Part shown: one piece after another, positions 46,430-62,842 of the stretch
How the letters are laid out: every line of letters starts with the position of its first letter
Position numbering within the stretch: the first letter of the stretch is position 1
DNA from: Sphingopyxis sp. LK2115
GTDB taxonomy: Bacteria; Pseudomonadota; Alphaproteobacteria; Sphingomonadales; Sphingomonadaceae
DNA length: 64,000 nt
Direction of reading: 5' to 3'
Assembly: GCF_014595975.1 (NCBI RefSeq)
Contig: NZ_JABWGQ010000060.1
Span: 186,001-250,000, forward strand
Position numbers and translations under genes: made by a program
Notes under the pieces: model-generated
What the model was told of the DNA's origin: nothing
The model's input: only the letters and a program-made list of their open reading frames with translations
Databases searched by the model: none

Positions 46430-46546
46430 TCCGGCACAATCCTTACCGCGCGATTCACAAAAAAATGGAGCTGATTCAGATCGGCACGACTAAAAATGGT
46501 AAATGGTCTTTGCACCATTGACGCCGCGCGGCATAGTTGGTGCAAA
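46430..46546. promoter_or_regulatory. AT-richer region with inverted repeats before bpt
   Basis: Base composition drops relative to neighbours (runs of A, AAAATGGTAAATGGT). TTTGCACCA (46509-46517) is complementary to TGGTGCAAA (46538-46546), and ATGGT...ACCAT (46503-46518) forms a competing hairpin. This could be the bpt promoter and operator or a small RNA; nothing decides. Confidence 0.35.
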
Positions 46547-46604
46547 CAGCGCGCCGGGCCCGCGTCGGGGGGCGCCGCATCGCCATTTCGGAGGTCTAGT
46601 CCGC

Positions 46605-47378
46605 GTGTCCGCACCGTTCCGTTTTCCGCGCTTTTTCGTCACCAGCCCGGCGCCCTGCCCCTATCTGGCGGGCAAGACCGAGCGCAAGGTGTTCACCGAG
46701 CTTAGCGGAAACAATGCGGCGGAACTCAACGACGCGCTGGGCCGTATCGGGTTCCGGCGCAGCCAGTCGGTCGCCTATCGCCCGAGCTGCGCCGATTGTT
46801 CGGCGTGCGTGTCGGTGCGCGTGTGCGCCCGCGAATTTACTCCCAGCAATTCGCAAAAACGCAATCTGCGCCGCAACGGCGATCTGGTCGTCACGGCGTG
46901 CAAGCCATGGGCGACCGAGGAGCAATATGCCTTGCTGCGCGCCTATCTCGCGTCGCGCCATCCCGATGGCGGCATGGCCGACATGGATGAGCAGGATTTC
47001 GCCGACATGGTCGAGCAGACCCCGGTCGACAGCTATATGGTCGAATATCGCGAACCCGTCGCGGGCGGCGGCAAGGGACGCCTTGTCGGCTGCTGCCTGA
47101 CCGACCGGCAGAGCGACGGCCTGTCGATGATCTACAGCTTCTTCGACGCGCATCATCCGCTGCGCGAGGGGCTGGGCACCTATATCATCGCCGACCATGT
47201 GCAGCGCGCGGCGAAGGCGGGGCTGCCCTACGTCTACCTTGGTTACTGGATCGAGGGGTCGGCGCGCATGGCCTATAAGGCGCGCTTCCGCCCGCTCGAG
47301 AAGCTCGGCCCCGATGGCTGGTCGCGCTTTGAACCGACGCCGTCGGAACGGATCGCGGCGATGTTCGAATTGGCTTGA
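46605..47378 (+). CDS. bpt: Aspartate/glutamate leucyltransferase (N-end rule, Bpt)
   Basis: 257 residues of the ATE/Bpt family, which transfers leucine from its tRNA to proteins with N-terminal Asp or Glu, marking them for ClpS-ClpAP. C-P-Y-L-A-G-K near 24, [11 protein letters not shown] near 56-66, then [17 protein letters not shown] and the acetyltransferase-like core ([34 protein letters not shown]). GTG 46605 is supported by GGAGG 11 bases upstream; the longer frame from 46503 has no such site. Confidence 0.9.
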
Positions 47379-47810: not shown

Positions 47811-50261
47811 ATGAGCGAGGCGGCCCCTCTTGAACGCGTAAAGGTCGCGATCATCGGGTCGGGGCCGGCGGGTCTGAGCGCCGCGGCACGCGCAGCGCAG
47901 CTGGGGATGAGCCACATTCTGCTGGAAAAGACCGACCATCTTTCCGACACGATCTTCAAATATCAAAAGGGCAAGCGCGTGCTCGCAACGCCCGAACGCC
48001 TTGATCTCCGCTCCGACTGCCGCTTTGCGGAAGGCGCGCGCGAACATATCCTCGCCAATTGGGACGAGGATGCAGCGAACAACGGGGTCAATGTGGTCTA
48101 TCGCGCCGACGTCGCCGAGGTAACGGGCGAGAAGGGCGCGTTCGCAATCAAGACCGCGCAGGGGGATGTCTTTCACGCGGAAAACATCGTGCTGGCGATC
48201 GGCACACAGGGCAATCCGAACCGCCTGCGCTGCGAAGGCTACGACCTGCCGCACATCATCTATCAGGTCGACGATCCCGAGGATTTCAAGGACAAGCATA
48301 TCACCGTCGTCGGATCGGGTGACGCGGGGATCGAAAATGCACTGGGGGTGGCCGAGGAAGCGCTGGAAAACACGGTCACCATCCTCAACCGATCCAGGGA
48401 TTTTGCGCGCGCCAAGGCCAAGAATGTCTCCGACCTGATGGAAGCGGGCGAAAACGGACTGATCGCGATCCGCACCGAGACGCAGCCGAAGAAAGTCGAA
48501 CCCGGCTGGCTGACGCTCGACACCCCCGATGGCGAGGAACGCATCCCGTGCGACGTCATCGTCGCGCGGCTGGGTTCGGTTGCGCCGCGCGCCTTCGTCG
48601 AATCGATGGGGATCGAGTTCACCGGACCCGACCGCGAGGCCTTTCCCAAGCTGTCGCCGACCTTTGAATCGACGGTGCCCGGCATTTTCGTGATCGGCGC
48701 GCTCGCGGGCTATCCGCTGATCAAGCATTGCATGAACCAGGGTTATGACGTCGTCGAGTTCATCAATGGCAACACGGCGCTGACCCCCGCTGACGAAAAG
48801 GATCTGGCGGCGATCTTTGCGGGGTTGCCGCAGCAGAAATCGGTGAGCCAATGGCTCGACTATCTGCGCGAACGGGTGAGCATTTTTGCCGATGTCTCGC
48901 CGCTCCAGATGCGCGAGTTCATGCTCGATTCGAAGGTCGCTTTCTATCGCAAGGGCGAGGTGGTGTTCGAGAAGGGCGAACCGGGGTCGTCACTGTTCGC
49001 GATCGCCGATGGTTTTGCCGCGGTCGAGGTCGGTTCCGGCGTTACCGTGCCGATCGAACAGGGGTCGATTTTCGGCGAAGTCGGGCTGATTTCGGGGCGC
49101 AAGCGCGGCGCGACGATCCGCGCGGGTGCCGACAGCATTTTCGTCGAAGTGTCGCGCACCGCGGCGCTCAAGCTGATGGCGGCGGTGCCGGGCGCGAAGC
49201 GCGCGATCAACCGCATTTCGCTCGAACGCCAGTTGCTGCAAATCTTCAAGGGCGGGCTGACCGCCGAGGATCTGGCCCCGGTCGTCGAGGCGGCCGAGGT
49301 CGAGCGCGTCCCCGCGGGCAAGGCCGTGCTGACCGAGGGCGAACAGGGTGACGATGTCTATGTGATCCGGTCGGGTTCGATGGTGGTCGAAAAGGACATC
49401 GGCGGCAAACCGATCTTCCTGCGCTATCTGCCCGCGGGCAGCTTCTTCGGCGAAATGGGGGTGCTGAGCGGCCAGCCGCGCAACGCCACGGTCAAGGCGG
49501 CGGTCGGCAGCGAGGTCATCAAGCTGACCGGTGACAGTTTCCGCAAGATGCTCGCGGCGCGGCCGCAGGTGCGCGAAGCAACCGAGGCCGCGGTGGCCGA
49601 ACGTGCGGCGATGAACAGCTTTATCGAGTCGCGCAAGGCGAGCTATTCGAGCGCGGTCGACCTCTATTCGGACACCGCCAGCTTTATCATGAAAGAGGGG
49701 TTGGGCGAGGCGACCGACGCGCTGCTCATCGACGAGAATCTGTGCGTCGGCTGCGACAATTGCGAAAAAGCGTGCGCCGACAGCCACGAAGGGCTGTCGC
49801 GGCTCGACCGCGAGGCGGGCAAGACCTTTGCGCATCTGCACGTCCCCACCAGCTGCCGCCACTGCGAGCATCCGCATTGCATGGCCGACTGCCCGCCGAA
49901 CGTCATCCACCGCGGCCCCGACGGCGAAGTGTTCATGGAACCGGGCTGCATCGGTTGCGGCAACTGCATGCGCAACTGCCCCTATGGCGTGATCCGCATG
50001 GAGGCGGCGCCGCCGCCCAAGCCGGGGCTGCTGAGCTGGTTGCTGCTCGGGCGCGGGCCGGGGCCGGGCGAACCTTCGCCCAAATGGACAAGGAAGCAAT
50101 TGGGCGACGAGAAGCCCAAGAAGATCGCGGTCAAATGCGACATGTGCAAGGGCATCGCCGGCGGCCCAGCGTGCGTGCGCGCCTGCCCGACGGGCGCCGC
50201 GATCCGCGTGTCGCCCGAAGAGTTTCTGTCGATCGCGCGGCTCGACGAGGCGACCGACTGA
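47811..50261 (+). CDS. Fusion: FAD/NAD(P) oxidoreductase, two cyclic-nucleotide-binding domains, 4x[4Fe-4S] ferredoxin
   Basis: 816 residues, cytosolic (no signal). Residues about 10-350 form a thioredoxin-reductase-like flavoprotein: VAIIGSGPAGLSAAARA binds FAD and VVGSGDAGIENALG (about 165-178) binds NAD(P)H; no CxxC redox pair was seen. About 365-480 and 495-605 are two cyclic-nucleotide-binding domains, both with phosphate-binding cassettes (F-G-E-V-G-L-I-S-G with Glu423 and Arg432; F-G-E-M-G-V-L-S-G with Glu548 and Arg557, each followed by x-A-T). From 640 come four Cys clusters of the HybA/DmsB type: C645-x2-C-x2-C-x3-C and three more, enough for four [4Fe-4S]. The stop overlaps the cytochrome b ATG (TGATG). 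Confidence 0.85.
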   Translation: MSEAAPLERVKVAIIGSGPAGLSAAARAAQLGMSHILLEKTDHLSDTIFKYQKGKRVLATPERLDLRSDCRFAEGAREHILANWDEDAANNGVNVVYRADVAEVTGEKGAFAIKTAQGDVFHAENIVLAIGTQGNPNRLRCEGYDLPHIIYQVDDPEDFKDKHITVVGSGDAGIENALGVAEEALENTVTILNRSRDFARAKAKNVSDLMEAGENGLIAIRTETQPKKVEPGWLTLDTPDGEERIPCDVIVARLGSVAPRAFVESMGIEFTGPDREAFPKLSPTFESTVPGIFVIGALAGYPLIKHCMNQGYDVVEFINGNTALTPADEKDLAAIFAGLPQQKSVSQWLDYLRERVSIFADVSPLQMREFMLDSKVAFYRKGEVVFEKGEPGSSLFAIADGFAAVEVGSGVTVPIEQGSIFGEVGLISGRKRGATIRAGADSIFVEVSRTAALKLMAAVPGAKRAINRISLERQLLQIFKGGLTAEDLAPVVEAAEVERVPAGKAVLTEGEQGDDVYVIRSGSMVVEKDIGGKPIFLRYLPAGSFFGEMGVLSGQPRNATVKAAVGSEVIKLTGDSFRKMLAARPQVREATEAAVAERAAMNSFIESRKASYSSAVDLYSDTASFIMKEGLGEATDALLIDENLCVGCDNCEKACADSHEGLSRLDREAGKTFAHLHVPTSCRHCEHPHCMADCPPNVIHRGPDGEVFMEPGCIGCGNCMRNCPYGVIRMEAAPPPKPGLLSWLLLGRGPGPGEPSPKWTRKQLGDEKPKKIAVKCDMCKGIAGGPACVRACPTGAAIRVSPEEFLSIARLDEATD

Positions 50262-51142
50262 TGGCGAGCCTGTTTCAGCGACGCCGCAACCGCGCGACCC
50301 AGACCGAGCGGGTGCGCGAGCGCCGGCACGAAGGCTTCCTGCGCTATGCGGGGTTCCGCTGGGCAAAGATTTCGGGCGGGCTGTGCCTGCTCATCATCCT
50401 TTCCTATGCTCTGGTCGATGTGACGCCGCGGCACAATGGCGGCAGCTGGTATGGCTATACGCTGGGGACGATCGGCGCGCTGCTGATCCTGTGGCTGACC
50501 GCGCTCGGTTATCGCAAGCGCCGGATGACGAGCGATTACTGGTCGCTGAAAGCCTGGACGTCGGCGCATGTCTATCTGGGTCTGAGCCTGATCGTCATCG
50601 GCACCTGGCACACGGGGTTCCAGCTCGGCTGGAATGTCCACACGCTGGCCTGGGCGTTGATGATGCTTGTCATCCTGTCGGGGCTTTATGGCGTCATCGT
50701 CTATGCGACCTTGCCCGCCGCGCTGTCGAACAATCGCGAGCAGATGACGCAGATGCAGATGCTGGAGGCGATCCGCGCCTTCGACCGCCAATTGCACAGC
50801 GCCGCGCAGCCGCTGACCCCGGCGGACAGCGCCGCGGTGCTCGCCTCGCTCGACCAGGATCCCTTTGCGGGCGGCGCGTGGGCGCGTCTGCGCGGCCGCT
50901 ATCCGGACTGCGCCACCGCTGCGGCGCGCCGCGCGCTGGCGACATCGCAGGGCGGCGACGCCGACGCGCGGGTGAAGGTTGTGCAGCTGTTGTCGCAAAA
51001 GGAGGCGGCGCTGGCGCGGCTGCGCGAACATCTGCGGCTGCGCGCGCTGCTCGAAATCTGGCTTTATGTGCATGTGCCGCTGACCTTTGCGCTGATCGCG
51101 GCGCTGTCGGCGCATATCGTCAGCGTCTTTTTCTATTGGTGA
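50261..51142 (+). CDS. b-type cytochrome-like membrane protein
   Basis: 293 residues with five hydrophobic helices (about 36-52, 67-83, 100-118, 128-150, 267-290). Histidines placed for heme b lie in the third helix (His103, His117, in AHVYLGLSLIVIGTWH) and the last (His271, His285, in VHVPLTFALIAALSAH). A large helical segment, about 155-260, is cytosolic or periplasmic. It overlaps the preceding fusion by one base and lies 10 bases before the decaheme gene. It likely passes electrons between the ferredoxin domain and periplasmic hemes; heme binding is inference. Confidence 0.7.
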   Translation: MASLFQRRRNRATQTERVRERRHEGFLRYAGFRWAKISGGLCLLIILSYALVDVTPRHNGGSWYGYTLGTIGALLILWLTALGYRKRRMTSDYWSLKAWTSAHVYLGLSLIVIGTWHTGFQLGWNVHTLAWALMMLVILSGLYGVIVYATLPAALSNNREQMTQMQMLEAIRAFDRQLHSAAQPLTPADSAAVLASLDQDPFAGGAWARLRGRYPDCATAAARRALATSQGGDADARVKVVQLLSQKEAALARLREHLRLRALLEIWLYVHVPLTFALIAALSAHIVSVFFYW

Positions 51143-51152
51143 GGCGCAGGCG

Positions 51153-53087
51153 ATGAGCTTCATTCTCCGCCGCATCGCGACGACCAAGACGGGCAAGCAG
51201 ATCGTCCGTGACCAGGCGCTGCCCGGCGACACGATCACGTTGGGGCGCGACAGCGCAAACACGATCCATGTCGCCGATCTGGCGGTGAACCCGAACCATG
51301 CGACGATCAGCAGCGGCGACGGTCGCATGGTGCGGGTGACGGCGCGGGAAGGGCTGGGGTTCGACCTTAACGGCCGCACCGAAACCGTCGCCGATATCGA
51401 CAGCGGCGCGGGCGCCGAGCTGCGTTTCGGCGGGCACCGGCTGACGATCGCGCGCGAGGATGACAAGATCATCCTGCTCGTCGAGCGGATCGACGAACTG
51501 TCGCAATCGTCGAAGGACGTCGACGAGGTAAGGGCCTTTTCGCTCGCGGGCGTGATGCCGGGCAAGCGCGTCAGCGCGTGGACCTTTGGCTTGCTCATGC
51601 TGCTTGCGTTTCTGGTCGGCCCGATCTGGGCGTGGCACAGCTATCGCGAGGTCGCCGAGCGGCCGGGCACGTTCCACGCCGACCGCACATGGATTTCGGG
51701 TCCGCTGTCAAGCGCGCACGCCAATCTGACCAGGGATTGCCAGTCGTGCCATGTCGAGCCCTTCGTCGCGGTGACCGACACGGCCTGCGTCAATTGCCAC
51801 ACCGGCGAGCACAAGGCGATGAGCATGGCGCACGCGGGTGCGCCGACCGCGATGCTGCTTGCGGCGCGCGCGCCGACGGGCGGATTCGACAGATTCCTCG
51901 CCAACGTCGGCGAGGCGTTCAACCGGCCGCAGGGGCGCTGCGTCGATTGCCACACCGAACATGAAGGGGCAGGGCCGATGGCGGCGACGCCGCAAAGCTT
52001 CTGCGCCGATTGCCATGACGGAATGCAGGGACGGCTCAAAAGCGCGGGGTTTCCGACGATGCTGGCCGATGCGAGCGATTTCGGCACCGGCCACCCAGAG
52101 TTTCGCCCGCTCGTTCGCGCGGCGCCGGGGGCGACGCTGGCGCGCGCTGCACCGGGCAAGGCGACGGTCGATTACAACGGGCTGAAGTTTCCGCACGACC
52201 TGCATCTTCAGGCGACCGGCGGCGTGGCGCGCATGGCGGCAAGCTTCCGCGGGCGGCATGATTTCGGGCAAAAGCTCGAATGCGAAAATTGCCATCGCGT
52301 CGAGGCCGACGGCGTGCGCATCAAGCCGGTCGAGATGGAACGCGACTGCGCCATGTGCCATAGCCTGGCGTTCGAGACGGTCGGCGGGGTGACGCGAACC
52401 TTGCGCCACGGCGAACCGGCCCAGGTCGTCGCCGACCTCACCGCCTATTATCGCTCGACCCCGCCGTCGCGGCCGCTCCAGCTCGGCGGGATGCAGCGGC
52501 GGCGGCCGGGCGCCTATGCCGAGGGGCAGGTCTATAACATCTATTTCAACGAGGTGGCGGTGCGGCCGAGCCGGGCAGAGGACGCGGTGCGCGCGGTCTT
52601 TTCAAAAGGCGGCGCGTGCTACGACTGCCACACCATCTTTGCGCCCGCAGCCGGGAACAGCTGGCGCGTCGCGGCGGTCAACCAGACGCCGCGCTTTCTG
52701 CAAAAGGGCTGGTTCGACCATGACGCGCACCAGGAAACCGCCTGTGCCGATTGCCATATCGCGGCGTCCGCGTCGAAAACGTCGACCGACCTGCTCGTTC
52801 CCGGCCTGCGCCAATGCCGCGATTGCCATGTCGGCGAGGGCGGGGCGCGGCTGGTGAAGGTCGAAACCGCGACCGAATCGCCGTGCGCGATGTGCCACGA
52901 ATATCATTCGGACGGCGGCAAGCCGTGGGTGCCCAACCGTCAGCGGAGGGTTAACAGCGCGGCAATTACAAATAAACGCGCGGATGCTAGTGCGGGTGTG
53001 AGCGCGATCACAGGAACCGCGGCGCGCGGTCTTTATCGTGTGACTTGGCGCACACCCGCCTTGCACGCGGCAAGACGGGGCGGGTGA
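51153..53087 (+). CDS. FHA-domain membrane protein with ten c-type heme motifs
   Basis: 644 residues. Residues about 20-105 are a forkhead-associated fold (ITLGRDSANTIHVADLAV, with NPNH in place of the usual SxxH). One membrane helix (about 139-161) gives an N-in orientation. The periplasmic part has ten C-x-x-C-H motifs between about 196 and 582, alternating types (CQSCH, CVNCH, CVDCH, CADCH, CENCH, CAMCH, CYDCH, CADCH, CRDCH, CAMCH), as in multiheme cytochromes c. After WVPNRQRR (about 600) the last 45 residues look like translated intergenic DNA and overlie two CRP-type sites. Confidence 0.85.
   Translation: MSFILRRIATTKTGKQIVRDQALPGDTITLGRDSANTIHVADLAVNPNHATISSGDGRMVRVTAREGLGFDLNGRTETVADIDSGAGAELRFGGHRLTIAREDDKIILLVERIDELSQSSKDVDEVRAFSLAGVMPGKRVSAWTFGLLMLLAFLVGPIWAWHSYREVAERPGTFHADRTWISGPLSSAHANLTRDCQSCHVEPFVAVTDTACVNCHTGEHKAMSMAHAGAPTAMLLAARAPTGGFDRFLANVGEAFNRPQGRCVDCHTEHEGAGPMAATPQSFCADCHDGMQGRLKSAGFPTMLADASDFGTGHPEFRPLVRAAPGATLARAAPGKATVDYNGLKFPHDLHLQATGGVARMAASFRGRHDFGQKLECENCHRVEADGVRIKPVEMERDCAMCHSLAFETVGGVTRTLRHGEPAQVVADLTAYYRSTPPSRPLQLGGMQRRRPGAYAEGQVYNIYFNEVAVRPSRAEDAVRAVFSKGGACYDCHTIFAPAAGNSWRVAAVNQTPRFLQKGWFDHDAHQETACADCHIAASASKTSTDLLVPGLRQCRDCHVGEGGARLVKVETATESPCAMCHEYHSDGGKPWVPNRQRRVNSAAITNKRADASAGVSAITGTAARGLYRVTWRTPALHAARRGG
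52997..53054 (+). promoter_or_regulatory. Tandem CRP-type binding sites upstream of the phosphodiesterase
   Basis: TGTGA-GCGCGA-TCACA at 52997-53012 is a perfect match to the CRP consensus half-sites. TGTGA-CTTGGC-GCACA at 53039-53054 matches 9 of 10 positions. Centres are 42 bp apart, four DNA turns. They lie at the 3' end of the decaheme frame and 75-130 bp before the phosphodiesterase start. Confidence 0.65.
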
Positions 53088-53128: not shown

Positions 53129-53977
53129 ATGCTGATCGCCCAGATCACCGATATCCATATCGGGTTCGATCCGGACAATCCGGCCGAATATAATCGCAAG
53201 CGCCTCGACGAGGTGCTCGACGTGCTGATCGAGGGGCCGAACCGCCCCGACCTGTTGCTCGCCACCGGCGACATCACCGACCGCGGCGACGCCGACAGCT
53301 ATCGCCGTCTTGCGACCGCTTTTTCGCGCTGTCCCTTTCCGGTGTGGCCGAGCGTCGGCAACCATGATCTGCGTGACAATTTCCATGCGCGCTTTCCGGG
53401 GTTCGACGACGGCAACGGCTTTGTCCAATATACGATCGAGCTGCCCGAACTCAGGCTGGTGACGATCGACACGCTGGAAGAGGGACGCCACGGCGGCGCC
53501 TTTTGCGCGCGCCGCGCGGCGTGGCTCGACACCGAACTGGCAAGGGAGCCGGTCAAGCCGACCTATATCGTCATGCACCACCCGCCGGTCGAAAGCGGGA
53601 TCGAATGGATGAACACGCACCCCGACGAACCGTGGGTCGCGACCTTTACCGATGTCGTGCGGCGTCATCCGCAGGTGCGCGGCCTTATCTGCGGGCATCT
53701 CCACCGCAGCGTGACGGTGGCGTGGGAGGGGCGGACGATCGCGATCTGCTCATCGACCGCGCCGCAGGTGTCGCTCGACCTTCGCCCCATCGACGAAAAC
53801 CATCCCGACGACCGGCCCATGATCGTCGCCGAAGACCCCGCCTATGCGCTCCATCGCTGGAACGGGCGCGAACTGGTAAGCTTTTACGACCATGCGGGGG
53901 CGCACACCATGCTGGCCAAATATGACGAACGGTTGCAGCCGCTGGTGCGCGAGCTGAAGGCAGAGCGACCGGGCTGA
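53129..53977 (+). CDS. Metallophosphodiesterase, CpdA/GpdQ family (class III cyclic nucleotide PDE-like)
   Basis: 282 residues with all five calcineurin-like motifs: IAQITDIHIG (Asp8, His10), ATGDITD (Asp48), VGNHD (Asn78, His79), VMHHPPV near 153 and GLICGHLHR near 189. The C-terminal cap segment and length fit GpdQ and CpdA enzymes, which hydrolyse cyclic AMP or glycerophosphodiesters with two metals. Context is in favour of cyclic AMP: the upstream redox fusion has two cyclic-nucleotide domains and the promoter has CRP-type sites. ATG follows AGGGGACGG. Confidence 0.8.
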   Translation: MLIAQITDIHIGFDPDNPAEYNRKRLDEVLDVLIEGPNRPDLLLATGDITDRGDADSYRRLATAFSRCPFPVWPSVGNHDLRDNFHARFPGFDDGNGFVQYTIELPELRLVTIDTLEEGRHGGAFCARRAAWLDTELAREPVKPTYIVMHHPPVESGIEWMNTHPDEPWVATFTDVVRRHPQVRGLICGHLHRSVTVAWEGRTIAICSSTAPQVSLDLRPIDENHPDDRPMIVAEDPAYALHRWNGRELVSFYDHAGAHTMLAKYDERLQPLVRELKAERPG

Positions 53978-56566: not shown

Positions 56567-59500
56567 TCAATCGGCGGGCGGGGTCCACAGATCATCGTTG
56601 CCTGCGCCGGTCACCGGATCGTCGACGAGCGGCTCGCCGCGCAGCGGATCGACGTCGCGCATCGTGATGAGCGCCTGTCGCAGGTTAAAGCCGTCGGTCC
56701 GTGCATCGTCGCCGTCGCCGTCGATCTCTTCCTCGATCACGTCCTGCACCGGAAAGCCGCCGTCGCCGTCGCGGTCAAAGGGGATGCAAGCGGCAGGGCT
56801 GGAGATCAGGCAGCCATTGACCGTCGACCGCGGATCATAGCTGCCGACAATGGGGGCGATGCCGTTGACCGTCACACGCTGAAGCGCCTGGAGCCCCGTG
56901 ACCGGTCCGCCAGGCCCCAGATGCACCCCGTTGATGACAATCCGCGACGCACCCTCGGTCACAACGTCCATCCCGCCTGCTCCGAAGGTCAGACCGCGGC
57001 GTTCCCCGATCGTGGTTCCGGCGCCGCTGTTCTGGACATAGAAGCCGCCGACGACCTCGGCGCGGATGCCGCGCGCGAAGAGCGCGCCTTCGTCAAGGAG
57101 GATGCCGTCATTCCGGGTGAGCCGCCCGTTGATCGCGTCGGTCGTCGTCGCCGCGCCGACGTCGGCGATCGCCGCCGCAGTTGCGACGATGATGTCGTCG
57201 GACACCATGTTGAGCTGGCCCGCCGGCGCCGCGCCGTTGACGAGGCGAATGCTGCCCTGGCCCAGTATGACTTCCAGCGCGTCGTTCGCGATCAGGTTCA
57301 GCGCGTTGGTATCGGACAGCCCGGTGAGTTGGACACCGCCGATGACGCGCATCTTGCCCGGCGTGCGGATCGTCAGCGCGCCACTGGCGCCGAGGTTCGA
57401 GCCGGGCGCGCCGCCCGCGAGCGTGAAACCGTCGACGATCACATCGGGCGGCGCGGCCGATCCGACCGATCCGCCGCCCGCAGATGCCACTTCGGGGGCG
57501 AAAATCTCGATCTGGGTAGCGAACAGGCGGGTGAGTTCGCCGGCATCGATATAATAGCCCGCGACGCTGCCGCCCGGCGCGCCGCCCACGAAGGTCTGGT
57601 TGTCATTATTGTTGTTTGCGATCGACAGGGTCGTGGTGACGCCTGCCGTTCCGACCCGCCCGCCCGGATCAATCGCAATGTCCGCCGATGCGAGTGAAAT
57701 GGCCTGTCCCGTGACGATTCCGGTGATGCCAAGCGACGATAGCGCCGTGGCGCCGAGGTCGCCTGCCACCGTCACTGTGTCGAGGTTCAGGACGCCGCCG
57801 TTGCTCGCAAGGATCGCGTCGTCGGCGGTCAGCGCAGTGATCGTCATCACGGCGCCTTGCGTGGAAAGATCGGCGGTGCCTGCAACGCTGCCGCTGCCGA
57901 GCGACAGATCGCCGTTCGCGCGGACGAAGGCGTCGCCGACATCGGTGGCGAGCGTCTGAAAGGCCATGTCGCCACCGCTCTCGATACGGATTGCATTGGC
58001 GCTGGCGTCGATCGGACCCGAAGCGAAAAGCGTTCCTATCCGGATATTGCCGCCGCTGCTGTCGAGGCTGGTCGCGCCGAGTGCATAGACTTGATCGACA
58101 TCGACGCCCGCGGTGCCCGCCAGGGCGACGTCCTGACCCTCGACTGACGTCAGGTCGATCGCGGTGGCAGCGGTCAGCGTGCTGTTGCCGAGCGCACGGA
58201 CGCCGCCGCCGGTAATCCCCGCTGCCGAATCGATCACGATATTGCCGTCGGCGGCGAGCGTCGGAACCGCATTGCCGCCGGGATCGGTCAGCGCGGCGAT
58301 TGTAACGCCGGTCGCCGTGATCGCGACGTCGCGCCCGGCGTTCACCGGGCCGGTCAGGGCGGTGGCGGCCGTCGAATCGACGATGATGTCGCTGAACGAA
58401 GCAACATCGGCGAGCGTCGTTACGCCCCCCTGGGTGCGCAGGCTGCTGTCGCCGCCGGTCGCGCCGAGACCCAGTGTCGATGCGCCGCCGACCGCGATGC
58501 TGTTGGCGGCGGTGAGCAGAATATCGTCGCCCGCCGACAGCCCCGCGGCGTCGATCGCCCCCGCGGTCGATTGCAGGGCGATGTCGGCGCCGTCGGCCGT
58601 CTGTGCGGTGATGGTAAAGGTCGGCCTGCCCGAAGCGGCGGTGAAGCCAAGGACATGCGTGTCGGCGCCGGCGCCGGTGGCGGCAACACCATCGGCCGCG
58701 ATGTTGCCGGACGCCTGGACCGTCACATCGTCGCCCGAGGTGACATTGGCGAGGCTGGCGGTCGTGCCTGCGAGCACGAGCATGTCCTCGCCGGCGGTGC
58801 CGCCGTCGATCGTCGCCGCGCCGCCGGCGCTGACGCCGAACATGCGCGCGGCGGCGCTCGTCACCAGATTGGCGTCGGCGGCGGCGATGACGAACAGATT
58901 ACCCTCTGCGAGCAGGCCGTTGCCATCGACATAACCGCCGTTGGCGATCGCCGACGCGGTGATATTGGCATCGGAATTGAGGAAGATGTCGCCGCCCGCG
59001 ACGAAATTGCCTGTCAGATCGTCGGCGGCAAAGATCGAAATCGTGCCCGCGACATCGGCGGCATCCACCGACACCGCGCCACCAATGCCAAAGGCGACGA
59101 AGGATGCATCTCCGGTGACGGGGCCGGTCAGCGCGACGCTGTTGGCGAACAGGCTGATGTCGCCGGCCGCGGCGATCGCGCCGCCGTCGATGCCGTCCAC
59201 GGCCGACAGGCTGACCGTCAGCCCCGCGTCGATGCTGTTAAAGGCGATCGACTGGCCCGACACCTGGACGAAACCGCCCGCGCTCGAATTGCCCAGATCG
59301 ACCGCGCCCGGCGAGACGATGCTGATGTTGCCGCCGGTGATGATCGAGTTGAGACCGGTGGCGAAGCTGCCCGCATTGGCCGAGAAATTGCCCACGGCCT
59401 CGGCATGTTCGACCCTCGTGGCGCCGGGGCTGGACATCAGAATATTGCCGCCCGCTAGTCGGTCGACGGCGATCGTGCCCGCCGGTCCCGCGATTGCCAG

Positions 59501-62500
59501 CGACAACGTGCCGTCGGCGGCGACAAGGCTGCCGGTTGCGCCGGTGATGGCGGTCCCCGCCGTCAGCGTCACATCGCCGCTCGCGTTCAGCGTTGGTGCG
59601 GTGCCTTCGCGACTGTCATGGCGCAGGTCGATCTGGTCGCCCGCGTCGATCGTCAGCGATCCGGCGACGTCAAAGCTGCCGTTCGACTGGCCATAGACGC
59701 CGATCGACCCGTCGGTGGCAAGCGTGACATCGCCCTGGCTTGTGATTGTGCCGCCCGCAGGGGCGACGAAGATGCCGGTCGCCGCGATGTTGGTATTGTT
59801 GTTTGTCGGCGCGGCAAGGCCGAAAGCCTGTGCGGTGAGGCCCGCAAAATTGATGGCTCCGCCGGTGCTGCGCAACTCGACGCGGCCCGCGGCATCGCCG
59901 CTGGCGTCGATGCTCGTCGCTCCCAGGTCGATCTGTCCGGTTCCCGCAGGACGATCGCTCGCTTCGATCTCGACGCGGCCGCCGGCGGTCAGGCCGATGG
60001 CGCCCGCGCCGCCACCGCTGCCGCCGCCCTGGCCAAGCCCGCCGATGCCGCCTTCGCCCGCAACGCCATTGGCGGCAAGGCCGACGGCCTCGCCGCCCGA
60101 ATCGATCGTGCCGCCCGCCGCGACCAGGCGAAGGGTGCCGCCGCTGCCGTTACCCCCGTCGCCGCCATTGCCGGCCTGGTTCCCGGCGCCGAAAACGCTG
60201 TTCGCCCCTGCGCCGCCGACGCCGCCTGTGCCGCTGCTGGCGAGTGCGACGCCGCCGCCGGTGCCAAGGCCGAGCGTGACCAGCGCCCCGTCCGTCGCGG
60301 CGATTTCGATCGTGCCGCCGCGACCGTCGCCGCCATTGCCGCCGTCCGGGGCGACAGCGGGGAAGGCGCCAAAGCCAAGCCCCCCCGATCCGCCGTTGCC
60401 GCCGACCCCGCCGGTGACGAAATTGGTTTCGACGATGGTAAGCCCCGCGCCGGCGCCGTCGGCCTGCATGCGTGAGGTTCCGCCGCTGCCGCTCCCCCCG
60501 TCGCCGCCATTGCCGTCGCGGCCGTCGCCGCCGTCGCCGCCCGTGCCGGTCGACGCGATGGTGACGACCAGCGCGCCCGCGTCGAAACCAGTAACGATCG
60601 CCTGCGCCACGCCACCGACGCCATCGCCGCCCGTCCCCCCGACGTTGTGGATGCCACCGGCGCCGCCCGTTCCTGTCGCGACGCTGCTGGCCGAAGCGAC
60701 GGCGGGGATCGCGGTTTCGAGCGCGAGTGTCGCCGTGCCGCCGCGGCCGGTCCCGCCTGTCCCGCCGACGCCGATGCCCGTCGCAGCCCCGCTGCTGCTC
60801 GAAAAGAAGCTGTCGCCGCCATCGCCGCCGATTCCCGAAGCGTCGGCGATCATGCTGCTTGCGCTCGTGGCGCCGCCGGTGACGTTGATCGCGGCCGTGC
60901 CGCCGATCCCTTCGCCGCCGTTGCCGGGGGTGCCGGGCACGCCGCTGAAACTTGATGCGTTAAAGAAGTTCCCGCCGCGCCCGCCGACGCCAAGCGCGCT
61001 TGCCTGCACGACGCTCGCATCGACGACAGCGGTTCCCGAAATATTGATGATGGCAGAGCCGCCGCGCCCCTGGTTGCCTTCGCCGCCGGGGACGATGTTC
61101 AGCGGGTCGTCGTCATTGCCCGACAAACCGTTGCCGCCAAAGCCGTTGGCGCTCGCCACGATGTCGGCGACGGTGATCGACCCGCCGCTGACGTCGATCG
61201 TCGCGCTTCCTCCCTCGCCACGCCCCGATTGCCCCTCGATGGCGCCACCATCGGCGGCGACCCGCATGTCCCCGATCGCAGCGGTGCCGCCGGTCTGCGA
61301 AAAGACGGCGATGCCCCCGCGTCCTGCCCCGGCCGTGCCTGCGTCGCCGAACTGGCCGACGGCGCTGGCGTCTATCGTCAGGAGCGATGCGGTGAGGCTG
61401 CCGCCCGTAAGGGTGAGGCTGGCAGTGCCGCCCTGTGCGTCGCCCGTCACGGCGTCGGGCACCCCGGACGCCACAATGGCAAGATCGCCCGCGGCGAATA
61501 TCCCGCCCGTAACGGTCAGCGCTGCGTTGCCGACGGCGCCCGCCGTGCCGCCGGACTGGAGCGTGAAGTTGCCGGTCGCGCCGCCCTGTTGGCCCATACC
61601 GATGGTCAGCGATGCGCCGGCGTCGCCAGTGAAGCTGCCATCGCCTTCGACGAAGAACAGGCCGTCCGCCGAAAGCGGCGGCGGCGACGCAGGCAAGGTC
61701 TGTGTTGGTCCCGCGGCAAAGGTGCCGCTGGCGCGCGCAATCGTGTTGCTGCGCAGCAGCGTGTCGGTGGCGACGATGTTCGCGGTTACGGCGCTGACCG
61801 GCGCAGCGTCCAGCTCGCCCCCGACGATATTATAGCCCGCCGACAGCCGCACGGCGCCATCGGGGTCGACCTGCGCCGATACGGCATCGTCATAGCCGAT
61901 CGCGCCGCCGACGAGCAGCGTCACCGCGTCATTCTTTGGAATGGCGACCATATAGATGCGGTTCTGGTCGGTATCGCCCTGTTCGTGCGCGGGGCCGGTG
62001 GTCGTGCCGGAATGGTCGATCACCGTGCCGCCCTCCGCTCCGACCGTCACGTCGATGTCGAAGAGGCCGCCATTGATTCGGATATTCGCCGCCTCGGCGG
62101 CGACATAGGCCGCCGATCCGTCGACACGCACATTGCCCGCCTGGACGATGCGCGGGGCGACGAGCGCGACATAGGAACTGCCCGGATCGCCGACATTGTT
62201 GGCGTTGATCGCTCCGTTGACGGTGATCGCGGCGGTGCTCCCCGATGCGCCGGCCAGGCGGATCGTGCCGCCGGGGCCGAACAGCCCGCCGTTCGTGTCG
62301 ATGTCGTTCGTGGTCAGCAACAGGCTGCCGACATTGATGACCCCGCTGGCGCCGATCAACAGGCCGCCGGCGTTATAGAACCAGATATTGCCGCCGCGCG
62401 GGCCGGTTGTCGAACCGATATAGGAATTGACCGTGCCGTTGAGCGCGATCTGGCGGCTGAGTGCGCCGCCCGATGCGTCGACGAAGCGGTTGAGCACCGT

Positions 62501-62812
62501 ATAGTTACCCGTGCCGACGAAGTTCCAGATTTCGCCCGCCGGAAGAATGTCGATCGCGCCGCCGGTCGGCGCATTGTCGGTCGGCACCCAGTTGATGACG
62601 CTTTCGCTGGTCGTAACCGTCACGGTTGTCGTGTTGGTGGCTCCATTGTTGCCGATTGTGCCCGCGCCCGAAACAAAGCTGCCGTTGCCCGCAACCTGCG
62701 CAGCGACAGGGCCGCCATGTGCCAGTGCGGCCAGTCCTGCGGCGATTGCGCAACTGGCCAGCAGCCGCTGTTTGCCGTTGCGGCGGGGCGATAGGGTGGC
62801 GATGGAACGCAT
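56567..62812 (-). CDS. TpsA-type exoprotein (filamentous-haemagglutinin-like), two-partner secretion
   Basis: 2,081 residues. An extended signal (RNGKQRLLASCAIAAGLAALAHGGPVAAQ) is followed by the TPS domain (about 45-270), with NIWFYNAGGLLIGASG and VNVGSLLLTT-type strands for recognition by TpsB. A Gly/Asp-rich stretch (about 550-930) has GGDGG and GGxGG triplets; the rest is about 20-residue beta-helix coils. Near the C-terminus are CLISSPAAC and DRDGDGG (calcium-site-like). ATG 62812 has GAGGA 7 bases upstream; ATG 62839 is in frame but poorly placed. Probably a large adhesin or inter-cell protein at the surface; no toxin domain seen. Confidence 0.85.
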   Translation of the reverse strand: MRSIATLSPRRNGKQRLLASCAIAAGLAALAHGGPVAAQVAGNGSFVSGAGTIGNNGATNTTTVTVTTSESVINWVPTDNAPTGGAIDILPAGEIWNFVGTGNYTVLNRFVDASGGALSRQIALNGTVNSYIGSTTGPRGGNIWFYNAGGLLIGASGVINVGSLLLTTNDIDTNGGLFGPGGTIRLAGASGSTAAITVNGAINANNVGDPGSSYVALVAPRIVQAGNVRVDGSAAYVAAEAANIRINGGLFDIDVTVGAEGGTVIDHSGTTTGPAHEQGDTDQNRIYMVAIPKNDAVTLLVGGAIGYDDAVSAQVDPDGAVRLSAGYNIVGGELDAAPVSAVTANIVATDTLLRSNTIARASGTFAAGPTQTLPASPPPLSADGLFFVEGDGSFTGDAGASLTIGMGQQGGATGNFTLQSGGTAGAVGNAALTVTGGIFAAGDLAIVASGVPDAVTGDAQGGTASLTLTGGSLTASLLTIDASAVGQFGDAGTAGAGRGGIAVFSQTGGTAAIGDMRVAADGGAIEGQSGRGEGGSATIDVSGGSITVADIVASANGFGGNGLSGNDDDPLNIVPGGEGNQGRGGSAIINISGTAVVDASVVQASALGVGGRGGNFFNASSFSGVPGTPGNGGEGIGGTAAINVTGGATSASSMIADASGIGGDGGDSFFSSSSGAATGIGVGGTGGTGRGGTATLALETAIPAVASASSVATGTGGAGGIHNVGGTGGDGVGGVAQAIVTGFDAGALVVTIASTGTGGDGGDGRDGNGGDGGSGSGGTSRMQADGAGAGLTIVETNFVTGGVGGNGGSGGLGFGAFPAVAPDGGNGGDGRGGTIEIAATDGALVTLGLGTGGGVALASSGTGGVGGAGANSVFGAGNQAGNGGDGGNGSGGTLRLVAAGGTIDSGGEAVGLAANGVAGEGGIGGLGQGGGSGGGAGAIGLTAGGRVEIEASDRPAGTGQIDLGATSIDASGDAAGRVELRSTGGAINFAGLTAQAFGLAAPTNNNTNIAATGIFVAPAGGTITSQGDVTLATDGSIGVYGQSNGSFDVAGSLTIDAGDQIDLRHDSREGTAPTLNASGDVTLTAGTAITGATGSLVAADGTLSLAIAGPAGTIAVDRLAGGNILMSSPGATRVEHAEAVGNFSANAGSFATGLNSIITGGNISIVSPGAVDLGNSSAGGFVQVSGQSIAFNSIDAGLTVSLSAVDGIDGGAIAAAGDISLFANSVALTGPVTGDASFVAFGIGGAVSVDAADVAGTISIFAADDLTGNFVAGGDIFLNSDANITASAIANGGYVDGNGLLAEGNLFVIAAADANLVTSAAARMFGVSAGGAATIDGGTAGEDMLVLAGTTASLANVTSGDDVTVQASGNIAADGVAATGAGADTHVLGFTAASGRPTFTITAQTADGADIALQSTAGAIDAAGLSAGDDILLTAANSIAVGGASTLGLGATGGDSSLRTQGGVTTLADVASFSDIIVDSTAATALTGPVNAGRDVAITATGVTIAALTDPGGNAVPTLAADGNIVIDSAAGITGGGVRALGNSTLTAATAIDLTSVEGQDVALAGTAGVDVDQVYALGATSLDSSGGNIRIGTLFASGPIDASANAIRIESGGDMAFQTLATDVGDAFVRANGDLSLGSGSVAGTADLSTQGAVMTITALTADDAILASNGGVLNLDTVTVAGDLGATALSSLGITGIVTGQAISLASADIAIDPGGRVGTAGVTTTLSIANNNNDNQTFVGGAPGGSVAGYYIDAGELTRLFATQIEIFAPEVASAGGGSVGSAAPPDVIVDGFTLAGGAPGSNLGASGALTIRTPGKMRVIGGVQLTGLSDTNALNLIANDALEVILGQGSIRLVNGAAPAGQLNMVSDDIIVATAAAIADVGAATTTDAINGRLTRNDGILLDEGALFARGIRAEVVGGFYVQNSGAGTTIGERRGLTFGAGGMDVVTEGASRIVINGVHLGPGGPVTGLQALQRVTVNGIAPIVGSYDPRSTVNGCLISSPAACIPFDRDGDGGFPVQDVIEEEIDGDGDDARTDGFNLRQALITMRDVDPLRGEPLVDDPVTGAGNDDLWTPPAD

Positions 62813-62842
62813 GGCGGTCGTCCTCGATGCACGATTCATGGG

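Follow-up and report, generated by a model that had tools for sequence, protein, structure and literature searches.

A flavoprotein, b cytochrome and decaheme cytochrome encoded together in Sphingopyxis: a candidate cyclic nucleotide-gated input to an electron path across the cell envelope

Analysis of a 64,000-nucleotide stretch from the 3.2-Mb genome of Sphingopyxis sp. LK2115 (RefSeq assembly GCF_014595975.1, contig NZ_JABWGQ010000060.1, positions 186,001 to 250,000), here called the window, revealed three packed genes for a flavoprotein (P1), a b-type cytochrome (P2), and a multiheme c cytochrome (P3), together referred to as the triad. An earlier note on this DNA had described the three genes with their domains and motifs and with 1-base and ten-base spacing, and this was confirmed: the P1 stop codon and the P2 start codon share one base, the last of the former and the first of the latter, and ten bases lie between the P2 stop and the P3 start. 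While the description of the three genes stands, the system proved larger than the three-gene chain of that note, with a phosphodiesterase (PDE) gene as its fourth gene and with outer-envelope partners. The features of the unit, and a cyclase gene beyond the window, are as follows (window coordinates, with the evidence in brackets):

47811..50261, plus strand: P1, flavoprotein of 816 amino acids (aa) with two cyclic nucleotide-binding (CNB) domains and four predicted [4Fe-4S] clusters (Pfam, Cys motifs)
47811..48800, plus strand: P1 FAD/NAD(P) domain, about aa 1-330, with GxGPAG and GxGDAG (Pfam Pyr_redox_3/2, invariant glycines)
48882..49178, plus strand: P1 CNB1, about aa 358-456, pocket residues E423 and R432 (cNMP_binding match)
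49302..49556, plus strand: P1 CNB2, aa 498-582, pocket residues E548 and R557 (cNMP_binding match)
49728..50210, plus strand: P1 Fe-S domain, HycB-like, 16 Cys in four groups, aa 640-800 (Cys motifs, Pfam)
50261..51142, plus strand: P2, five-helix b-type cytochrome of 293 aa, predicted hemes at H103/H117 and H271/H285 (His pairs, hydropathy, model)
51153..53087, plus strand: P3, c cytochrome of 644 aa with an FHA domain, a transmembrane helix and ten heme motifs (CxxCH motifs, domain matches, model)
51153..51488, plus strand: P3 FHA domain, aa 1-112, retaining G31, R32, and H49 (fold match, alignment)
51582..51638, plus strand: P3 membrane helix, aa 144-162 (hydropathy; helix 138-164 in the predicted structure)
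51708..52922, plus strand: P3 heme domain, predicted periplasmic, with ten CxxCH and further conserved His (motifs, alignment)
53129..53977, plus strand: PDE, class III metallophosphoesterase, CpdA/SpdA-like, fourth gene of the unit (Metallophos, NCBIfam, synteny)
65599-67833 in continued window numbering, about 1.6 kb past the window end: CHASE2 class III cyclase of 744 aa (window's genome)

P1 combines a flavin domain, whose solved relatives in a profile search against the PDB include YpdA/Bdr and ferredoxin-NADP reductases, with two stretches matching PF00027 (112 bits, cut-off 27.5); PKG, PKA, and CRP domains are among the solved relatives of this CNB part. Among the matches kept, the closest named relatives are Sphingopyxis species, with 87-93% identity in P1. 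In an alignment of 12 broad rows, all 16 Fe-S cysteines are invariant, and so are the pocket Glu and Arg of the phosphate-binding cassette in both CNB domains (12/12); rows in this and the other alignments were unthinned except where distinct counts are given. A role of P1 as a bacillithiol or thioredoxin reductase was rejected, as its FAD/NAD(P) part holds no CxxC motif and its score with TIGR04018, the model for the YpdA/Bdr disulfide reductase, is under the cut-off (124.9 against 339.9 bits). The active-site Cys of YpdA/Bdr is placed after GxGP; at this position, residue 20, P1 has Ala or Gly in 12/12 rows. Also rejected was a flavoprotein of the NOX/ferric reductase type, since NOX-type domains were not in the best 25 of the 32 families matched. 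One genome contig (L068, G147:C17) carries a second, lone copy of P1 with P2 and P3 not nearby and a class III cyclase about 4 kb away.

For P2, two H-x13-H pairs were found, the usual pattern of two stacked b hemes held between two helices, and H103, H117, H127, H271, and H285 are invariant in 53/53 aligned rows. The predicted structure (pLDDT 90.2) shows five long helices in the membrane, the last two of them separated by a soluble insert (residues 160-233, approximately). Because the charges place the N terminus and this insert in the cytosol by the positive-inside rule, the heme b on H103/H271 is predicted to face the cytosolic side and the one on H117/H285 the periplasmic side. Ni_hydr_CYTB was the sole Pfam match and a weak one, and a profile search against the PDB returned nothing useful. 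In structure comparison, the top matches were long helical bundles of unrelated proteins, and b561-like matches were no more than suggestive. Matches that would make P2 a ferric reductase or a Ni-hydrogenase b subunit were absent or under the cut-off, and both candidates were discarded.

All ten CxxCH motifs of P3 are invariant in 46/46 aligned rows, and ten more His columns are kept in 43 to 46 of them. The FHA fold of the N-terminal domain was confirmed. The Ser with which FHA domains bind phosphothreonine stands three residues before the conserved His. This phosphate-contact Ser is absent in 42 of the 46 rows (Ser in 4, Thr in 2, Asn in the window), so that phosphoprotein binding by this domain is unsupported and the switching by phosphoproteins that the earlier note had proposed was not upheld. 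The domain probably serves in docking that does not require phosphothreonine.

Conservation of the three genes together had been set beforehand as the test that could refute the proposed system. It was assessed in named loci, for which the best 80 of 355 relatives from at least 584 stretches were taken; 79 loci were kept, of which 71 have this P1 and the remaining 8 encode a shorter flavoprotein resembling that of PCC3 clusters. Some genomes are counted both as unnamed and as named loci. P1, P2, and P3 are collinear in 58 of the 71, and in 53 of the 62 with more than 3.5 kb of DNA downstream, so that the proposed system withstood this test. Among the nine exceptions, five (L090, L092, L104, L106, L126) are rearranged operons with P2-P3 or the P3 end at the far end, and in another (L124) P1 is broken across two frames. 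P3 of the 58 collinear loci has ten CxxCH in 54 cases and nine in one, while the contig end cuts three. In two related genomes of family f52, P1 and P2 are fused in one gene for 1118-1123 residues (L065:3052-6423 and L067:7850-11206), next to a P3 with nine CxxCH; the fusion favors formation of a P1-P2 complex. Pairwise distance matrices of P1, P2, and P3 correlate at 0.88-0.92 over 51 loci.

A search for P2 in 147 genomes of the order gave 36 positives (the own genome included), 25 of them strong and all of these in the window's family. From the 24 other strong genomes, 15 loci were fetched, and 15/15 encode P1-P2-P3 in this order, P1 having 16 Fe-S cysteines and P3 ten hemes. The presence of P2 varies inside at least five genera. 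Across a phylum sample, the P1 profile found 15 of 398 genomes, seven of them outside the family, and 7/8 loci fetched from these seven, the fused L065 and L067 among them, contain all three parts; the eighth is the lone P1 copy of L068. Hosts, by record title, are Sphingomonadaceae, Brevundimonas denitrificans, Rhizobiales, Methylotenera, Gallionella, Lysobacterales, Woeseiaceae, Alcanivorax, Chromatocurvus, and Nitrospina; 12 plasmid records of Sphingobium carry P1 as well. Some of the species names appear to be wrong: the metagenome bins L092, L133, L126, and L105 are titled Bordetella parapertussis, Klebsiella pneumoniae, and Thermoflexus hugenholtzii, and the genes of L105 are near-identical to those of L106, titled beta proteobacterium. 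The parts of the unit, their order, linkage, and co-inheritance, the conserved pockets and ligands, and the P1-P2 fusion are direct observations on the sequences.

The PDE downstream of P3 matched Metallophos with 63.7 bits (cut-off 21.5), and its best named models were SpdA (1.2e-39) and the 3',5'-cAMP phosphodiesterase CpdA (2.3e-22). Residues D8, H10, D48, N78, H79, H150, H190, and H192, which we take to be metal ligands, are invariant in 52/52 rows, 49 of them distinct. The gene is close to P3 in 15/15 fetched family loci and within about 210 bases of it in 20 of the 21 evaluable named sphingomonad loci (exception L085; 3 of 24 end too early). The cyclase past the window end matched PF00211 with 61 bits (cut-off 21.9); D508, D552, N630, and R634, presumably catalytic, are invariant in 24/24 rows. 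When 149 genomes of the family were surveyed with PF00211 at E up to 1e-6, 63 were positive: the cyclase was present in all 52 genomes with P1 and in 11 of the 97 without (Fisher 1.3e-29, a count that ignores shared ancestry). It lies within 40 kb of P1 or of the outer decaheme protein described below in 41 of the 52, against 5.1 expected by a rough estimate. The seven P1-positive genomes outside the family all have it, in four cases on the same contig within 25 kb of P1.

Since the pocket Glu and Arg are invariant, a PDE gene follows P3, and the cyclase occurs in every P1-positive family genome, the cyclic-nucleotide input postulated by the earlier note is well supported on genomic grounds. 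That the cyclase and phosphodiesterase are inherited with the CNB-bearing P1 makes direct gating by the nucleotide the simplest reading. An alternative would leave the redox chain as described, with CNB domains that bind another ligand or are structural, and with cyclase and PDE acting on expression through CRP-type regulators. The window's genome does encode another CNB protein of CRP size (L002), and the residue directly after the CNB1 pocket Arg is Gly in the window and in 5/12 rows, a position at which known cAMP sites frequently have Ser, Thr, or Ala. Nonetheless, the invariant Glu and Arg in both CNB domains of P1 and the linkage of the PDE and cyclase genes to redox genes argue against this alternative, which we regard as unlikely.

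Gene neighborhoods added an outer module of four proteins: a large decaheme protein with an LVIVD propeller (DECA, ten CxxCH), a beta-barrel, a lipoprotein of HbpS type, and a c554-type cytochrome that has four CxxCH and one CX4CH. Loci L150-L155 have these four genes in this order, followed by the cyclase, in a second operon that faces the triad and PDE; they come from a set of 15 other genomes picked for a cyclase near P1 on one contig. The order is P1, P2, P3, PDE, DECA, barrel, HbpS, c554 on a 951-kb Sphingobium plasmid (L168, AP027315.1), where the eight genes are annotated as "hypothetical protein" throughout except cpdA. Many gammaproteobacterial loci have the order P1-P2-P3-HbpS-barrel-DECA, a Nitrospina locus (L116) has P1-P2-P3-c554-HbpS-barrel, and the window's genome carries its outer operon on a separate contig (L164). 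All 56 beta-barrel open reading frames listed, each distinct, end in Tyr or Phe, a usual outer-membrane signature. No Pfam family was found for the barrels of L064, L155, and L164 at E up to 0.1, 0.01, and 0.001, respectively, and an SH3 domain in the L106 barrel was the sole Pfam match among the barrels scanned; PDB profile searches for the barrel and for DECA gave nothing useful. DECA occurs in 53 of the 149 family genomes, namely, 52/52 with P1 and 1/97 without, the latter 67% complete. In the phylum sample, it was found in 11 of 398 genomes, all P1 positive.

Several side observations concern these genes. In the rearranged operons L090, L092, L104, L105, L106, L126, and L133, P1 is placed after the barrel and DECA, and a c554-type cytochrome also precedes P1 except in L104, where it follows. 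Another outer set stands beside the triad in L123 (3869-9977) and L128 (15146-20108): a protein of about 600 aa with five CxxCH, a 540-aa protein at a barrel-like operon position, and one or two c554-type cytochromes. Two DECA matches (G574:C21 and G588:C93) have one internal TAA each, possibly from assembly errors or decay.

DECA is 60-79% identical to the first row in an alignment of 15 rows spanning classes, and its mean identity over 11 loci is 68%, compared to 38% for P3. This conservation suggests that DECA performs a specific catalytic job beyond conduction. One such job might be the reduction of metalloid oxyanions (tellurite or selenite) in the envelope, with DECA as the catalytic site, and the enzyme-like conservation would suit it. 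DECA gave a sub-threshold match to the equivalog of ExtM, which is encoded in a Geobacter selenite/tellurite operon (8.2e-19, 67.3 of 800 bits), although this match is partial and may reflect heme motifs. The unit is also present in Sphingomonas ursincola KR-99 (L078), which we take to be the same strain as Erythromonas ursincola KR99. In the latter, according to the accessible part of the report, tellurite is reduced by a membrane enzyme using NADH (PMC5488091). The purified enzyme, however, had subunits of 62 and 55 kDa, with GroEL as the nearest mass spectrometry match (PMC5488091). With a partial ExtM match and one strain behind it, the tellurite idea is weak, and we consider it very unlikely.

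Taken together, we propose that the triad is the inner-membrane input module of an electron path across the envelope and that a cyclic nucleotide, most likely 3',5'-cAMP, controls how active it is, a reading that we hold to be reasonably probable. NAD(P)H would reduce the FAD of P1, and electrons would pass through the four [4Fe-4S] clusters to the cytosolic-side heme b of P2 (H103/H271), from there to the periplasmic-side heme b (H117/H285), and on to the ten c hemes of P3. P3 would deliver them to the outer module (DECA, beta-barrel, HbpS-type lipoprotein, c554-type cytochrome) and thereby to an extracytoplasmic acceptor. The order of cofactor-binding parts that the earlier note had given (NAD(P)H/flavin, Fe-S, heme b, heme c) is supported. 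The two CNB domains, located between the flavin and Fe-S domains, would gate this flow, with a ligand made by the CHASE2 cyclase and removed by the neighboring phosphodiesterase. Cofactor loading, electron direction, ligand identity, gating, substrate, and complex formation are what we infer in this model. In its fullest form, which we put forward as possible rather than probable, it describes a separate class of second messenger-gated redox machine with a complete cAMP circuit (a sensor cyclase, the phosphodiesterase, and the two CNB domains within the first electron carrier), acting by direct allostery and not transcription, that leads from NAD(P)H across both membranes to a highly conserved multiheme surface enzyme in aerobic bacteria of several proteobacterial classes and a second phylum.

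The same genes could also be read as an envelope redox sensor, in which the chain would not move electrons in bulk but would use P1 and the FHA domain to inform the cytosol of how oxidized or reduced the envelope is. CNB and FHA are signaling domains, and the linked cyclase has a CHASE2 domain. Yet the seventeen predicted redox centers of the triad (one flavin, four Fe-S clusters, two b hemes, and ten c hemes), to which the outer module adds up to 15 more heme motifs, are in excess of what a sensor would need, making this reading highly improbable.

A number of findings weigh against the proposed gated electron path. L115, L136, and L138 show P1 without P2 or P3 in the DNA examined; in L136 and L138, the contig itself starts within P1. 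DECA is missing from 4 of the 15 P1-positive genomes of the phylum sample (the G296 contig ends after the barrel gene), and the Methylotenera and Gallionella loci have no linked outer genes in the DNA examined. The PDE scores far under the equivalog cut-offs (136.5 of 400 for SpdA, 79.8 of 225 for CpdA); SpdA is named as a 2',3'-cyclic-nucleotide enzyme, and 3',5'-cAMP as the ligand stays a proposal. This gene adjoins P3 in sphingomonads and one Rhizobiales locus, and two PDE seeds used on the remaining named loci matched solely in Brevundimonas (L079), 6 kb away. No cyclase lies within 40 kb in 11 of the 52 family genomes, and the co-occurrence counts carry no correction for common descent, although several genera include genomes with P2 as well as genomes lacking it. 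Finally, the type of flavoprotein is the one ground for the presumed outward direction of the electrons.

The direction bears on a further alternative, in which an extracellular or periplasmic donor would feed electrons inward through the c and b hemes to P1, which would reduce NAD(P)+ or some other acceptor in the cytosol. Homology links P2 to the b cytochrome of clusters L040-L044, assigned to PCC3 by heme counts only; that cytochrome shares the two H-x13-H pairs, and hhalign of P2 against it gave 99.5% (E 4.9e-23, 7 rows). PCC3 is found in iron oxidizers, and an oxidative role has been proposed for it in the accessible part of PMC10734462. The triad itself is carried by a Gallionella locus (L121) and a metagenome-assembled genome titled Biocath_Alpha_33 (L129). 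Transfer from an outside donor to NAD(P)+ is, for most donors, uphill in potential and opposed by the membrane potential. As this speaks against inward flow, and as many carriers appear from their names to be aerobic heterotrophs, we think an inward chain unlikely and retain the outward path as the preferred reading.

Other genes of the window showed a narrower distribution. Two of them are:

46503-47378, plus strand: arginyltransferase gene, directly upstream of the unit (NCBIfam 7e-114)
56567-62839, minus strand: 2090-residue, glycine-rich, secreted-looking protein

The arginyltransferase gene stands beside the triad in Sphingopyxis-like loci only. The 2090-residue protein had no Pfam match at E up to 0.01; Sphingopyxis loci contain relatives of it, and weak ones were seen near L073 and L077. 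The other neighbors checked are kept in Sphingopyxis loci and rarely beyond.

In line with the earlier note, which knew of no named system with this set of genes, no description of it was found among the best-ranked papers of the open-access literature searched. The only trace found is an entry in the accessible part of PMC10734462: among Gallionellaceae, MMSeqs cluster 403, a "Forkhead-associated protein" with 10 heme motifs in 27 of 87 iron oxidizers, stands under "Other" in Table 1, and no operon or mechanism is given for it there. Matched by description and not by sequence, this cluster is probably P3 itself. The Gallionella locus L121 has the triad, with nine CxxCH and one longer motif in P3; in L109, the contig stops within P2, after a complete P1. 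For porin-cytochrome systems and cyclic nucleotides, the open-access texts, as far as accessible, yielded c-di-GMP only.

Several known systems resemble the unit in part. MtrCAB, MtoAB, and PioAB likewise combine an inner-membrane input, a multiheme periplasmic cytochrome, and a predicted outer-membrane beta-barrel; the Mtr input, however, is quinol fed and of CymA type in the accessible part of PMC13322032, whereas this unit has an NAD(P)H-type flavoprotein. An assignment to MtrCAB was rejected because P3 misses the cut-off of DmsE, the model of MtrA-family decahemes (22.8 of 192.2 bits), and no Pfam match links the barrels scanned to MtrB or PioB. NADPH oxidases, ferric reductases, STEAP, and the b561-like superoxide oxidase differ in flavoprotein type, Fe-S relay, decaheme acceptor, and CNB domains. 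The Geobacter extHIJKLMNOPQS cluster shares multiheme cytochromes, a porin-like protein, a b cytochrome, and the partial ExtM-DECA match, but at 67 of 800 bits, and no CNB or FHA part is named for it in the accessible text of PMC5877670.

The closest likeness in a single subunit, the b cytochrome, is to the PCC3-like clusters. Two flavoproteins from such clusters (L041, L140) have a YpdA-like and a ferredoxin domain in about 440 aa and no CNB match among the families listed, while P1 has two CNB domains; the clusters encode cytochromes of 21-24 and 19-49 hemes, compared to the FHA-decaheme P3 and DECA here, and L041 includes an ankyrin/Sel1 protein. PCC3 is defined by a periplasmic cytochrome of 21-27 hemes (PMC10734462, accessible part). 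With 10 hemes each in P3 and DECA, the triad has no such cytochrome and was not assigned to PCC3. The unit thus appears to work like a porin-cytochrome conduit and to share ancestry in one subunit, while failing the defining features of PCC3 and MtrAB.

Most knowledge of envelope electron export comes from metal-respiring bacteria, and descriptions of its control deal mainly with gene expression. In the present unit, the electron carrier itself appears to contain the control element, and genes for a cyclase and a phosphodiesterase are inherited together with it; if this holds, a second messenger would here be the direct gate of a redox chain across the membrane. The gene set seems widespread, in several proteobacterial classes and, by record title, in Nitrospina. 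The model offers a role for genes annotated as "hypothetical protein", and probably also for the ten-heme "Forkhead-associated" protein of iron oxidizers, and points to an as yet undescribed chemistry of the envelope in bacteria of fresh and marine waters, cultured ones included.

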